Of a DNA stretch of 46,471 bases, positions 29,693 to 39,979 are shown piece after piece. The notes beneath the pieces are model-generated. The model had not been told where the DNA came from. It saw only the letters and a list, made by a program, of their open reading frames with translations, and made no database searches. The DNA is from a bacterium (GTDB lineage Bacteria; Patescibacteriota; Minisyncoccia; UBA6257; JAUSGH01): positions 1 through 46,471 of the forward strand of contig JAUSGH010000022.1 in NCBI GenBank assembly GCA_030649055.1, written 5' to 3'. Positions within the stretch are counted from its first letter, which is position 1. Every line of letters begins with the position of its first letter. A program made the position numbers and the translations under genes.

Positions 29693-30736
29693 TTATGCCT
29701 CTCTCACAGTATAACGCCCATCTGCATTTCTTTGGAAGTACTTCTTATTCTGCAGGTTGAGGAGAATAGTATTCGGCTTGAACGCGCGTTCTTTCAGAAT
29801 GACGTCCACCAGCTGATGCGATTTCAAGCTCCCGTTCTTCTTTAAGAAGTACGCGATGACTTCGCGCGCGGTTCCCGGAATGATGCCGAACTCGCGGAGA
29901 CCATAGAGTCCGCGGCCGACCAGCACGAAACGTTCATCTTTGATGAGTTCGTTATGCACCGTCTGATGATTGGTGCGCTTATTTTTTCGCACCGTGTTAA
30001 TCAAGTTCGCGATGTCGGTAAAGTGGAGAGGTTTGCGCTCTTTCTTGAGCGTCAAATAGGCCCAGTCGCGCGACGTTTTCGGATTGATTTCCGACCATGC
30101 CGCAAGTCCCGCGTCACCATAGTGGTTCACCATAAACCGCTTTGATGCCGAAACAAAATTCGCGCCGATCACGTCGGTCACACCATGCTGCGAGGCGCAA
30201 GCGGCAAAATAGTGATTAAACTTTTTGTCGCCGAGCACCTCGTCCTTCTTCGCAGCGAGTGTTCCGGCAAGTTTCGCCGCGAACAGTTTCGCGTGTTTCA
30301 TATGCTCGCCCGTAAGCCCCCATGTCGCATGCGCGTCCTTATCCGCAGGCGCGTATGCCAACTTCCCGCTCGCTTCCAGCAAGAAGCGTACACGATTTCC
30401 AAGGGTCTCTTTCGGACCATTGTCTGATGCCACATCGGTAACGTCGGCGAACAATGCCTCCTCCTTGCGTACGCCGCCCAGACCTTCCAGGTGCGCGACA
30501 ACCATCGACGCAAAGGATTCAATGCCGTTTTTGCTCCCCTCCGCGCGGACCGCGTCAAGTCCGAGATTCTGAATCTGCCGGATACGCTCGCGCGTCACGC
30601 CATAGCGCTTGCCCAACTCAGCAAGCGTCAATTCCCGACCATCTCCCAACCCGTATCGGCACCGCAACACTTCCTGTTGCCGCTCAGGCAACGGTTGCAA
30701 ACACTGCGCGACAATTTTGTTTACGACTAACTTCAT
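29693..30736 (-). CDS. Sigma region 4 - HARE-HTH transcription regulator
   Basis: 347 residues. Residues ~16-64 are a sigma70 region 4 helix-turn-helix ('LPERQQEVLRCRYGLGDG', 'LAELGKRYGVTRERIRQIQN'). A helical middle follows. Residues ~222-284 match the HARE-HTH domain of RNA polymerase delta ('KPLHFTDIANLIN', 'FVLVGRGLYGLREFG'), and ~285-347 form a second winged-helix-like unit. There is no sigma region 2, so it cannot open promoters alone. It is more likely an RNA polymerase-associated factor contacting -35-like DNA or the polymerase. Own consensus-like promoter with a TTGAC..GTCAA inverted repeat, suggesting autoregulation. Confidence 0.78.
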   Translation of the reverse strand: MKLVVNKIVAQCLQPLPERQQEVLRCRYGLGDGRELTLAELGKRYGVTRERIRQIQNLGLDAVRAEGSKNGIESFASMVVAHLEGLGGVRKEEALFADVTDVASDNGPKETLGNRVRFLLEASGKLAYAPADKDAHATWGLTGEHMKHAKLFAAKLAGTLAAKKDEVLGDKKFNHYFAACASQHGVTDVIGANFVSASKRFMVNHYGDAGLAAWSEINPKTSRDWAYLTLKKERKPLHFTDIANLINTVRKNKRTNHQTVHNELIKDERFVLVGRGLYGLREFGIIPGTAREVIAYFLKKNGSLKSHQLVDVILKERAFKPNTILLNLQNKKYFQRNADGRYTVREA

Positions 30737-35947: not shown

Positions 35948-36529
35948 CTACTTTTTCCTTTGTACTCGATATTCCATCGGGCGTTCTCTGACGTGACTTA
36001 TCCACACATCAGAATAATTAGCCGAACAAAGCGCGTTATCCTCGAATGCAAGAGAAAGGTAGGCACTCCATCCGCCATTCATACCGGGAACAGCGTTGCC
36101 AATCCATTCCCAACGGACGATCTTCAAGCGTGCCGTTGCGATCATCACGACTGAACCATTCTCCACATGCAAGCCACTCACCCTGTTCTCGTCGCAATAT
36201 ACAGCGGGCTCGCAATCCAGCCCGTGGCCATACCGCTGCCCGGTGGAGGGATTATGCGTATGCGACTTGATTATTGCGCTCACCTCCTCCTCGCTCATTC
36301 CATAGTCGAGATACACGGAGGCATCTTTTAGTGGATTCGGCGGGCAAGACGGTGGCTGCTTGTAGACCCACACCGTGAGGAGCCAAAGCCCCCACACCGC
36401 CACGAGGAGCGTCGCGAGCCACGCGTAGAGCTTCACTGCCCTCCACATAGTCTCGCGCGCACTCACCGGCGACACGTCGCGCGGATCTTGCACCTCGGGC
36501 TTTGCTGACTCTTTCGGTTCATTCGCCAT
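35948..36529 (-). CDS. Hypothetical membrane-anchored protein
   Basis: 193 residues. Charged N-terminus (~1-30), one membrane helix (~33-54, 'LYAWLATLLVAVWGLWLLTV'), then an external domain of ~135 residues with three Cys ('QPPSCPPNP', 'GLDCEPAVYCDENRV') that could form disulphides, and 'GMSEEEVSAIIKSH', reminiscent of SmpA/BamE-like lipid-side domains but without convincing signature. Strong SD (GAGGAG) before the ATG; own terminator. Lys mostly AAG. Confidence 0.7.
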   Translation of the reverse strand: MANEPKESAKPEVQDPRDVSPVSARETMWRAVKLYAWLATLLVAVWGLWLLTVWVYKQPPSCPPNPLKDASVYLDYGMSEEEVSAIIKSHTHNPSTGQRYGHGLDCEPAVYCDENRVSGLHVENGSVVMIATARLKIVRWEWIGNAVPGMNGGWSAYLSLAFEDNALCSANYSDVWISHVRERPMEYRVQRKK

Positions 36530-36640: not shown

Positions 36641-36660
36641 TTGTAACGCATAAAAAGGAA

Positions 36661-36694
36661 AACGGCCGGATGTGCGCTTGCACACCCGGCCGTT
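36661..36694 (-). terminator. Strong terminator of the metallophosphoesterase gene
   Basis: AACGGCCGG.TGTG / CACA.CCGGCCGTT stem followed on the minus strand by TTCCTTTTT. Confidence 0.88.
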
Positions 36695-36727
36695 CGTAGC
36701 TGCTTTGGTCGGCTCGCGCGGGAAACG

Positions 36728-39160
36728 TTACTTCCCGCCCGAACCCTTCTTGCGATTCGCCTTCACGCGCTCCACGATGCCGCGACTCTCTTCCTTGGAC
36801 GCTTCCCTGCCGATCCGCTGAATGATCTCGGCGGGAATCGTGAGCTCCATGAAGTCGCCCGGTTTCGGCATCGCGCAGACGTGCGCTGCCTGCGTGCGAG
36901 GCACTCCCGCGAAGTAGAGCTCGGTCGGCGTCACTCCTTCGAGTGTCGCCAGCCGGCATGCCACGCGGAACGTGTTCTCGTCCGTCTTGTCGCACTTCAC
37001 ATACCCGTCGTGGGTATGCCCGCAGATCGCGAGATCGGCGTCGGAGCTCCGCCCCGCGTTCACCGCCCCGTCTCCGCTGTAGCCCTTCGGATCATGCTGG
37101 ACCACGATATCAATCGTGCTCCGCATGCCCGACACGAGCTTGCCGTCTGCACCAAGTCCGTAGCGCTTGATGAAGATATAGCTCGCGTTGTCGTGCCCGC
37201 CGACCGCGACACGCACGCCGCGCATCGGATCCGCCTTGTAGTAGTCCGGTTGCACCGTACGGAACACGCCGATCTCACGCGCCTTGCACCGCTGGACGAA
37301 GAACGACCAGTCGATGATGCCCGTGCGATCCAACGCCTTCCGCGTGTGATTGCCGTCCACCGCAACCAGCGCGATCTTGAACGCACCCGGTTGCGCAAGG
37401 GTCGGAAGCAGAAGCTTGTCGAAGTAGTCGGCAAGCCAATCCAGAATCACGTCCATGGACTCCACGGTGCCACCCTTGGAATCGTTCGTCACCTTCTCCG
37501 CGGCGCGACGCACCGCATCCGGGTCACTCTGATCCACGTTTGCCATGAGCTCCATGTTCTCCAACATAAGCTCGTGCGGATCACGTTCCGCGGAGTGCAC
37601 ATGCGGCCACCGATTGTGGTTCGCGTCGGCGGCATCCCCGCCATTCACGTATCCCCGGATCCGCGCCGCGCTGCCACAGAGCACGAACGGCTTCGCGAGA
37701 TACGTCTTGTGCATCTCCACAAAACCGGCGCGCGTCATGTCTTCCGCCTCGCGAGCCCCGATGTGTTCGTCGGCACTTGCCGAGAACGCAGCGAACTCGC
37801 TCGGCTGCTCCAGCACCGCCCCCGTCAGGAAGTCGTTGTACTGGATCCAACGCGTCGCAACCACACCAACCGGCGCGCCCTTGGGCTTCGAGATGATCGT
37901 GAGCCCGGAGACGCCGTTGTTGTGGTAACGATTGAAGACCGCGTGACTCCGCGATGCCTGAGGCTTCCCGCCGCTCATGCGCACGGGTTCCTCGCCCTTC
38001 ACGAACCGCGCAATACGCGCCTGGTTCTCGAACGGCAGGGCACAGACAAGCGTCACGCCGTCATCGGTCCGTTCCGAGTCGTACTTCATCTGGTTCTTGT
38101 AGTTCACCTCGTCCGGCATGGTCTTCAGACGCTGATAACGCTTGAATCCCTTACCGTGGTGGCCGCTCTCCAGGATCACATCCGGGCGGGTTTCCTCCGC
38201 AACCCGAACAAGGTCCTTGATCGCCGCGCCTGCCAACCGCCGCGCATGCTGTTGCTTGCCATGCGTTGCCGCGACCATGCACTCCTCGATGCGAAGCAGC
38301 GTCGCCCACGTCTTGTGACGACCGTGCGCGTAGTCCACGCGCAAATCGCCGAACGTCAGCACTCCCTGTTTGTTCGTGAACTCCGCGCCCACACCCTTGC
38401 AGATCGCCCCAACCGAAGCATAGAAGCCCTCAACGAGCTTCTTCGTCTCGTACTGGTGCGTGGGGCCTTCCTTCGGCTCACGATAGAGCGCCTGCTTCTT
38501 CCTCATCGCATCGATGTCGGTGTTGAGCTTCCCCAGCGCCGCACCGATGTTGCCGAGGTCCTTCTCCACCGTCTGGAGCTTCCGTGTGACCTTTGTAGAA
38601 ACCTTCGCTTCGGGCTTCACGTCCTTCACGAGGTTCTTCTTGGTCTTCTCCATACCCTTCGCCTGCTTCTTCAACTCTCCGCACTTGCGGTTGAGTCGGC
38701 CGATCTCCTCCTCGCACTCTTCGCCGCTGCGAAGGAGAATAGCATTCAACAGCCGCGAGAACGAATGCTGAATGTCGTCCCCGCTTTCGGACACGACGAT
38801 CTTCGCCTTCGGCGCGGCCTTGCGAAGCTCCGCGAGTCGCCGTTGGAGGATGCCGAGCTGAATGCCCTGCATGTGCTCCAGACGATCGCGGCTCTTCACC
38901 TTTATGGACTCCTCCTCGCACTCCTCCTTGGACTTGTGCCAGTGCGTGAGATCCTTGTTCAGAATCTCCGGCCTATCCAGCCGTGTGAGCGCTCCGTCCA
39001 CGATGTACCCCGTAATCCACGGGCTCTTCTTCGCAAACGCGAGAAGATTGTTCCACGCGCCCTCGTCAAAGAAATCCGTGTCGAATCCCAACTCAGAAAG
39101 CATCGCAACGGTGTCCGCTTCCTTCTCGGCGAGAAGGTCGATGGTCCTCTGGCTATCCAT
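36728..39160 (-). CDS. 810-residue coiled-coil calcineurin-like metallophosphoesterase
   Basis: Not recognised as a named family. The C-terminal half carries ordered metallophosphoesterase motifs: 'SADEHIG' (D464xH466), 'NGGDAADANHN' (D509, D512), 'VDGNHTRKA' (GNH, 603-605), 'VVQHD' (H689) and 'ICGHTHDGY' (GHTH, 714-717). Residues ~75-225 are rich in charged heptads (two coiled-coil blocks: ~76-115, ~146-222) with a Lys-rich middle, an arrangement recalling SMC-like/Mre11 partnerships within one chain. That comparison is inference; no Walker motifs occur, so it is not SbcC. Cys residues 'EECEEE' occur twice. Strong SD (GGGAGG), AAG-biased lysines, own terminator and a ~250-nt leader: an autonomous unit. 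Confidence 0.72.
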   Translation of the reverse strand: MDSQRTIDLLAEKEADTVAMLSELGFDTDFFDEGAWNNLLAFAKKSPWITGYIVDGALTRLDRPEILNKDLTHWHKSKEECEEESIKVKSRDRLEHMQGIQLGILQRRLAELRKAAPKAKIVVSESGDDIQHSFSRLLNAILLRSGEECEEEIGRLNRKCGELKKQAKGMEKTKKNLVKDVKPEAKVSTKVTRKLQTVEKDLGNIGAALGKLNTDIDAMRKKQALYREPKEGPTHQYETKKLVEGFYASVGAICKGVGAEFTNKQGVLTFGDLRVDYAHGRHKTWATLLRIEECMVAATHGKQQHARRLAGAAIKDLVRVAEETRPDVILESGHHGKGFKRYQRLKTMPDEVNYKNQMKYDSERTDDGVTLVCALPFENQARIARFVKGEEPVRMSGGKPQASRSHAVFNRYHNNGVSGLTIISKPKGAPVGVVATRWIQYNDFLTGAVLEQPSEFAAFSASADEHIGAREAEDMTRAGFVEMHKTYLAKPFVLCGSAARIRGYVNGGDAADANHNRWPHVHSAERDPHELMLENMELMANVDQSDPDAVRRAAEKVTNDSKGGTVESMDVILDWLADYFDKLLLPTLAQPGAFKIALVAVDGNHTRKALDRTGIIDWSFFVQRCKAREIGVFRTVQPDYYKADPMRGVRVAVGGHDNASYIFIKRYGLGADGKLVSGMRSTIDIVVQHDPKGYSGDGAVNAGRSSDADLAICGHTHDGYVKCDKTDENTFRVACRLATLEGVTPTELYFAGVPRTQAAHVCAMPKPGDFMELTIPAEIIQRIGREASKEESRGIVERVKANRKKGSGGK

Positions 39161-39410
39161 GATTTGCCTCCCAAAAAGGGGCTATTCCGGATATTGGCAC
39201 GTCGCCAAAGTCGCTCCGCCACAACTGGCTCTGAATTTCGCAACTCAAAGCTCTCTTTCCTTATTCAGTTGTGAAGGTGCGACTGCGGCGACCCTTCGCC
39301 GCGTACTAGGGCAACACACCCTAGCACAAAACCTACCCCGAACACATCGCCGACAACCGCATGCGTCATTGACGCTCCGGAACCGGCGATATTCTCAAGA
39401 TAGGTTCTCT
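39161..39410 (-). promoter_or_regulatory. Long structured 5' leader of the metallophosphoesterase gene
   Basis: Between the extended -10 (39417-39425) and the SD there are ~250 nt without a convincing ORF but with clear hairpins: CTAGGG-N7-CCCTAG (~39303-39326), GCGGCGA-AGGG-TCGCCGC (~39283-39303) and GCGTC-AAT-GACGC (~39367-39380). No known riboswitch is recognised. Suggests post-transcriptional control. Confidence 0.5.
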
Positions 39411-39907: not shown

Positions 39908-39908
39908 G

Positions 39909-39979
39909 TGCCCTCAGATGGAATCGGACCATCGTCAACTGCTTAAAAGGCAGCTGCTCTACCATTGAGCTATGAGGGC
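39909..39979 (-). tRNA. tRNA-Lys (anticodon TTT)
   Basis: 71 nt on the minus strand: acceptor GCCCTCA/TGAGGGC, D-arm AGCTCAATGGTAGAGC, anticodon stem GCTGC/GCAGT with loop CTTTTAA (TTT), T-arm GGTCCGATTCC, discriminator A. CCA not encoded. Its U34 is a target of MnmA. Confidence 0.96.

Follow-up and report, generated by a model that had tools for sequence, protein, structure and literature searches.

A stand-alone metallophosphoesterase with a predicted coiled-coil hairpin, encoded by a rare gene family of Patescibacteria

Introduction

The metallophosphoesterase (MPE) fold spans both phosphatases and nucleases, and described systems of each kind can be set beside an 810-residue protein encoded on a patescibacterial contig, of which the whole 46,471-nucleotide stretch (the window) was analysed. 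Among the nucleases is PolD DP1, an archaeal Mre11-like proofreading exonuclease whose metals are bound by D360, H362, D404, N450, H497, H560, and H562, with H451 as the catalytic His (PMC10721889). All eight of these metal-binding and catalytic residues are matched in the same order in the window protein, and the first spacing is nearly the same (44 residues from D360 to D404 in DP1, 45 from D464 to D509 in the window protein). Unlike DP1, however, the window protein carries a helical hairpin and a conserved N-terminal half, has no recognised OB domain, and belongs to a bacterial host.

SbcD/Mre11 shares the MPE nuclease fold and the metal ligands with the window protein, and a coiled coil is part of that system too. 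In the window protein, by contrast, coil and MPE lie in one chain, and neither ATPase motifs nor a CxxC zinc hook were found in it. The original prediction, made from the letters of the window alone, had seen a likeness to Mre11/SbcD-type nucleases and had noted the lack of any ATPase motif. The latter observation was correct, with neither a P-loop nor an ABC signature present. The likeness holds for the fold, the metal ligands, and motif I, which aligns in register with that of SbcD; it does not extend to the zinc hook or to an SbcC partner, no candidate for which scored above cut-off in the host genome (a strict test, passed by one of 14 control genomes).

A solved MPE that has an antiparallel hairpin inserted in it is Legionella WipA, which dimerises through the coiled coil of that hairpin (PMC5454105). 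It shares with the window protein an MPE chain bearing an antiparallel helical hairpin, a likeness at the level of architecture; the WipA hairpin lies inside the catalytic domain, whereas that of the window protein belongs to a separate N-terminal half, and the organisms and contexts differ. The joining of coiled coils to an MPE had at first been called an unusual combination in one chain, and WipA makes that wording too strong: the superfamily is well known, and the combination has precedent.

LpxH and other calcineurin-like phosphoesterases (PF00149) are matched in fold, in the register of motif V, and through a weak PF00149 hit, although the window protein differs from LpxH-type enzymes in its roughly 450 extra N-terminal residues and its Pfam score below the gathering threshold. 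The strongest fold matches are phage metallo-dependent phosphatases (BFVD, e.g., A0A4P8N515 and A0A8S5SHE5; E 2e-7 to 9e-4), of which the ten best are shorter than the window protein (291-512 aa), and no sequence match was found in phage collections. The family itself is not described in the literature searched. What is new is a rare family with two subfamilies and, possibly, a second MPE lobe into which a coil is inserted.

The Gene and Its Surroundings

The 810-codon open reading frame was predicted correctly, and is read from the minus strand, a point left unsaid at the time (Table 1). Of the expression signals claimed for it, the strong Shine-Dalgarno sequence is present directly ahead of the start codon, and the terminator is strong as judged by its stem length, the number of terminator-like sites in the region being at background. 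The long leader stands as a 321-nt intergenic gap, but a scan located no promoter-like site within it. The description of the gene as a self-contained module is likewise supported, in that no partner gene is kept across the homologous loci.

Table 1. Coordinates in the window of the metallophosphoesterase gene, its expression signals, and the domains and motifs of its product.
Feature	Residues	Position	Strand	Description	Basis
810-aa metallophosphoesterase gene		36728..39160	-	ATG at 39160; stop codon ends at 36728	ORF translation; homologues in seven other genomes
Shine-Dalgarno sequence		39167..39172	-	GGGAGG, 6 nt 5' of the ATG	Direct sequence reading
N-terminal half	1-449	37814..39160	-	Conserved alpha/beta fold, strands in an MPE-like order, hairpin inserted	AlphaFold; invariant columns
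Antiparallel coiled-coil hairpin	about 128-226	38483..38779	-	Helices 128-179 and 189-226	AlphaFold DSSP
C-terminal MPE domain	about 455-776	36833..37798	-		Weak Pfam PF00149 match; Foldseek matches to PolD DP1, LpxH, and phage phosphatases
Motif I	D464-E-H466	37763..37771	-	D464 and H466 invariant	Six full-length members
Motif II	G508-D509	37634..37639	-	Invariant
Motif III	G603-N604-H605	37346..37354	-	Invariant
Motif IV	H689	37094..37096	-	Invariant
Motif V	G714-H715-T-H717	37010..37021	-	G714, H715, and H717 invariant
Intrinsic terminator		36660..36695	-	16-bp stem, 4-nt loop, T-rich tail

A second long open reading frame (797 aa, 36881-39274, plus strand) overlaps the gene in antisense and could be mis-annotated as a gene. 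It most probably arises as a shadow of the high GC content at third codon positions (GC3) of the minus-strand gene, because that value reaches 0.804 and the full-length conserved homologues lie in the minus frame.

The host genome comprises 875 kb in 23 contigs and is 100% complete. Judged by eye from the translations, the surroundings of the gene are bacterial housekeeping genes, including secD/F, htpX, lemA, dnaJ, dnaK, and grpE. Two further proteins of the window may be recorded. A 193-aa protein (35948-36529, minus strand) has one apparent transmembrane helix and the most atypical codon usage among the window genes examined, and gave no convincing family in Pfam, PHROG, NCBIfam, or PADLOC. 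A 347-aa protein (29693-30736, minus strand) appears by eye to begin with a sigma-70 region-4-like helix-turn-helix and to contain other DNA-binding-like segments.

The C-Terminal Phosphoesterase Domain

The five MPE motifs (DxH, GD, GNH, H, and GHxH) occur in order between residues 464 and 717, exactly as the original prediction had it. An ordered-motif regular expression matches the protein once, over this span, and when the sequence was shuffled 200,000 times, one shuffle matched. Six full-length members, the window protein included, were aligned, the other five being 26-39% identical to it, and 79 of the 810 positions are invariant. These include, in all six members, the eight ligand and catalytic residues D464, H466, D509, N604, H605, H689, H715, and H717. 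Seven His residues of the protein are invariant, of which five are the ligands and catalytic His of the C-terminal domain, and the remaining two, H279 and H334, lie in the N-terminal half. The C-terminal domain has the full complement of metal ligands, together with the catalytic His, of a two-metal phosphodiesterase site, the same set that Mre11 and PolD DP1 employ.

Profile searches recognise the domain weakly. PF00149 (Metallophos) matched residues 570-718 with an E value of 0.018 and 15.9 bits, below the cut-off of 21.5; in a genome-wide search with the same model the window gene was the sole match in the host genome (E 9.1e-4, 18.9 bits against the same cut-off), and none of the members tested reached the gathering score. 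This shortfall reflects a divergent protein, the superfamily assignment being carried by motifs and fold. No other Pfam model exceeded its cut-off in any family member tested. Searches of PHROGs and NCBIfam with the window protein returned weak matches only, mainly over the coil, with no NCBIfam model above cut-off; the C-terminal domain alone had no match in PHROGs, and a profile search of PDB sequences returned mostly coiled coils and eL38.

Structure prediction and profile alignment point to the same superfamily. An AlphaFold model built from a 10-row alignment (pTM 0.72, mean pLDDT 72) was matched by Foldseek to PolD DP1 (probability 0.99), LpxH (0.96), and phage metallo-dependent phosphatases (1.0), with E values down to 2e-7. 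Matches within the PDB are weak, the best to an MPE having an E value of 8.7e-3 and none reaching 0.001. In hhalign comparisons the C-terminal half aligned with E. coli SbcD (P=0.008, motif I in register) and with LpxH (P=0.013, motif V in register), while four unrelated E. coli proteins used as controls gave P=0.22-0.68. Motifs, invariance, and fold matches together support the MPE assignment, and membership of the calcineurin-like metallophosphoesterase superfamily is established. The domain is very likely to be catalytically competent.

The N-Terminal Half and the Coiled-Coil Hairpin

Long coiled coils had been proposed for residues 75-225. A coiled coil is present in the AlphaFold model, narrowed to a single antiparallel hairpin predicted to project from the N-terminal half, and the helices that precede it (78-87 and 90-115) are part of the globular N-terminal half. 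The hairpin is placed between strands 120-124 and 260-278, in a predicted order of beta(15-22)-alpha-beta(51-55)-alpha-alpha-beta(120-124)-[hairpin]-alpha-beta-beta-beta(273-278)-alpha-beta(328-331), which is how the strands of an MPE domain would be ordered. The invariant residues D128-D129, H279, and S-G-H334-x-G336 follow strands of the model at positions resembling those of motifs III, IV, and V.

On this model, the N-terminal half may represent another MPE domain, now decayed, in which D128, H279, and H334 are kept. If that reading is right, it retains most of the metal-B ligands and has lost those of metal A as well as the bridging Asp. Alignment of the N- and C-terminal halves by hhalign, with and without predicted secondary structure, was not significant (P=0.25), and pairs the motif V stretches of both. 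A fold search with the N-terminal half returned mainly coiled coils, with no MPE among the 50 matches listed. The stretch from D128 to H279 measures 138-151 aa in the short-coil members of the family and 248-249 aa in the long-coil members, and therefore the length of the arm varies on a conserved base.

Relatives and Distribution

Whole genomes searched with profiles and with sequences yielded seven relatives, all in Patescibacteria, and members of the family range from 777 to 933 aa. They fall into a long-coil subfamily (G279, G116, and G509, mutually 54-62% identical) and a short-coil subfamily (G460, G459, G865, a broken copy at a contig edge in G464, and the window protein), with 25-29% identity between the two. 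Both G279 and G116 are Candidatus Magasanikbacteria. The copy in G464 (L024 6633-8191) consists of two overlapping frames with a break at motif I, either a sequencing error or a decaying copy. At two long-coil loci (G279 and G509), convergent genes resembling HD-type hydrolases were seen by eye to follow the family member (L025 10491-11363; L021 8107-9590), and none was seen by eye at the remaining loci.

The distribution is patchy. No member was found in 60 genomes of the order to which the host belongs, and among 384 genomes drawn from its class the host alone has one; the order containing G116 has six members in 86 genomes. No homologue was found in 50,697 phage records, in plasmid records, or in scans of 2.9 million viral contigs. 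Single-sequence searches for near relatives in viral contigs, genome contigs, plasmids, and the host's own order returned nothing, and an alignment-based scan of genome contigs recovered just the two known Magasanikbacteria. Phyla outside Patescibacteria were covered by these genome-contig scans alone.

Several candidates were rejected. A lone phage match (25% identity, E 0.06) lies mostly over the coil and was taken as a coiled-coil match; and the remaining matches from the searches of the phylum and the class (E about 1e-5 to 1e-2) are confined to short segments, in several cases over the coil. The one of these that was read, in L004, falls in an open reading frame resembling an aminoacyl-tRNA synthetase.

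Composition and Slot Exchange

The GC3 of the window gene (0.804) compares with 0.56-0.65 for 20 neighbouring genes. Seven members were compared in this way, the neighbours of G865 being left out, and in six (the window gene and those of G279, G116, G509, G460, and G464) GC3 exceeds that of all sampled neighbours; the exception is G459.

Three genomes of one genus permit a closer comparison. Between G116 and G460 the TrpS, RlmH, CarA, and CarB proteins are 83-92% identical and Tgt 82.5%, and the family members that occupy the slot between rlmH and tgt are 27% identical, one from each subfamily. The third genome, G313, has rlmH and tgt about 0.4 kb apart with no family member between them. The lemA neighbourhoods read in relatives of the host contain groEL or other genes and no such protein. 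Because of the patchy distribution, the high GC3, the swapped or empty rlmH-tgt slot, and the lemA neighbourhoods without it, the gene is regarded as an accessory gene that is exchanged horizontally. Neither a vehicle nor an integrase was found, and no convincing flanking repeat marks an integration at the tRNA-Lys gene (39908-39979).

Short GC-rich sequences were observed near several of these loci. The tgt-rlmH slot of G313 (L065 8801-9325) includes roughly 0.5 kb of GC-rich sequence (GC 0.50; median 0.40), which gives the impression of a different short piece of foreign DNA. Further short GC-rich islands lie near the enzyme in Magasanikbacteria-type genomes (L022 3176-4175; L024 4326-5125; L026 6051-7325), which suggests several small exchangeable inserts.

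Proposed Function and Alternatives

The explanation preferred here, with moderate confidence, is that the gene encodes a horizontally exchanged, stand-alone metal-dependent phosphodiesterase that acts on nucleic acid and uses its hairpin for dimerisation or partner contact. The C-terminal domain would hydrolyse nucleic-acid phosphodiester bonds as a nuclease with two divalent metals, an assignment made because of its DP1/Mre11-like ligand set and its fold neighbours. The N-terminal half would be a second MPE-type fold that has lost the metal-A ligands while keeping D128, H279, and H334, and on account of that loss its role would be regulatory or substrate-binding and not catalytic. The hairpin would mediate dimerisation or contact with a partner, replacing the coil that an ATPase drives in SbcC/Rad50, such that no ATP would be used, and the gene as a whole would supply an accessory, mobile function and not a housekeeping one.

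A more elaborate form of this proposal, speculative and rather unlikely as a whole, holds that these proteins make up a new nuclease family, independent of ATP and with an internally duplicated MPE, in which a dead N-terminal lobe, bearing a coiled-coil arm between its motif III and motif IV positions, gates the active C-terminal lobe. Such a protein would be a one-chain counterpart of Mre11-Rad50, exchanged between ultra-small bacteria and possibly serving in defence.

The sequence has no feature by which nuclease, phosphatase, and nucleotide phosphodiesterase could be told apart. In the alternative that deserves most weight, tentative as it is, the protein could be a metal-dependent phosphatase or small-nucleotide phosphodiesterase acting on a signalling nucleotide, a phosphoprotein, or a phospholipid head group, with a hairpin that dimerises or recruits a partner as in WipA. 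The fold is common to both activities, LpxH and phage proteins named metallo-dependent phosphatases are among the fold matches, and WipA, the solved MPE with an inserted coiled-coil hairpin, is itself a protein phosphatase (PMC5454105). Nevertheless, the solved structure that gives the best MPE match, PolD DP1, is that of a nuclease, and the series DxH...GNH...H...GHxH equals that of DP1 residue for residue, though phosphatases share most of it; moreover, neither signalling genes nor kinase genes were noticed next to the phosphoesterase gene.

Calcineurin-like domains also occur as effectors of conflict systems (PMC8195603), and the original prediction had named a defence factor as one possible role. 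A single-gene anti-phage system, in which the phosphoesterase degrades nucleic acid or nucleotides upon infection, would fit the rare and scattered distribution, the foreign composition of most members compared, the slot that within one genus holds different members or none, and the lack of a housekeeping partner. The proposal is nonetheless doubtful. It draws no direct support from PADLOC, whose matches are weak and on the window protein fall entirely over the coil; the loci are unlike defence islands, with neighbours that include rlmH, tgt, yidC, lemA, and dnaJ; and no sensor domain was recognised. A defence role is compatible with nuclease activity, and the confidence placed in the two readings therefore overlaps.

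Capture of a phage replication or recombination gene akin to the phage phosphoesterases that resemble the PolD small subunit, now a decaying remnant, is improbable: phage metallo-dependent phosphatases, one of them named DNA polymerase II small subunit, head the viral fold matches, but no homologue was found in the phage records and viral contigs searched, no phage genes were noticed beside the phosphoesterase gene, and the active-site residues are conserved across both subfamilies, so that the family is not decaying in general. The stretch examined of the Streptomyces phage BRock record names no phosphatase.

Significance

The host genome has no second protein matching PF00149, and thus no SbcD- or LpxH-type gene, while all 14 control genomes have matches over the cut-off. 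That so streamlined a genome retains a conserved, exchanged enzyme of 810 residues suggests that the benefit outweighs the cost, and the slot that within one genus holds either subfamily or neither offers a natural comparison for what is exchanged. Should the N-terminal half prove to be a decayed MPE with a coiled-coil arm, it would illustrate how a geometry like that of SbcCD/MRN can arise in a single, ATPase-free chain.
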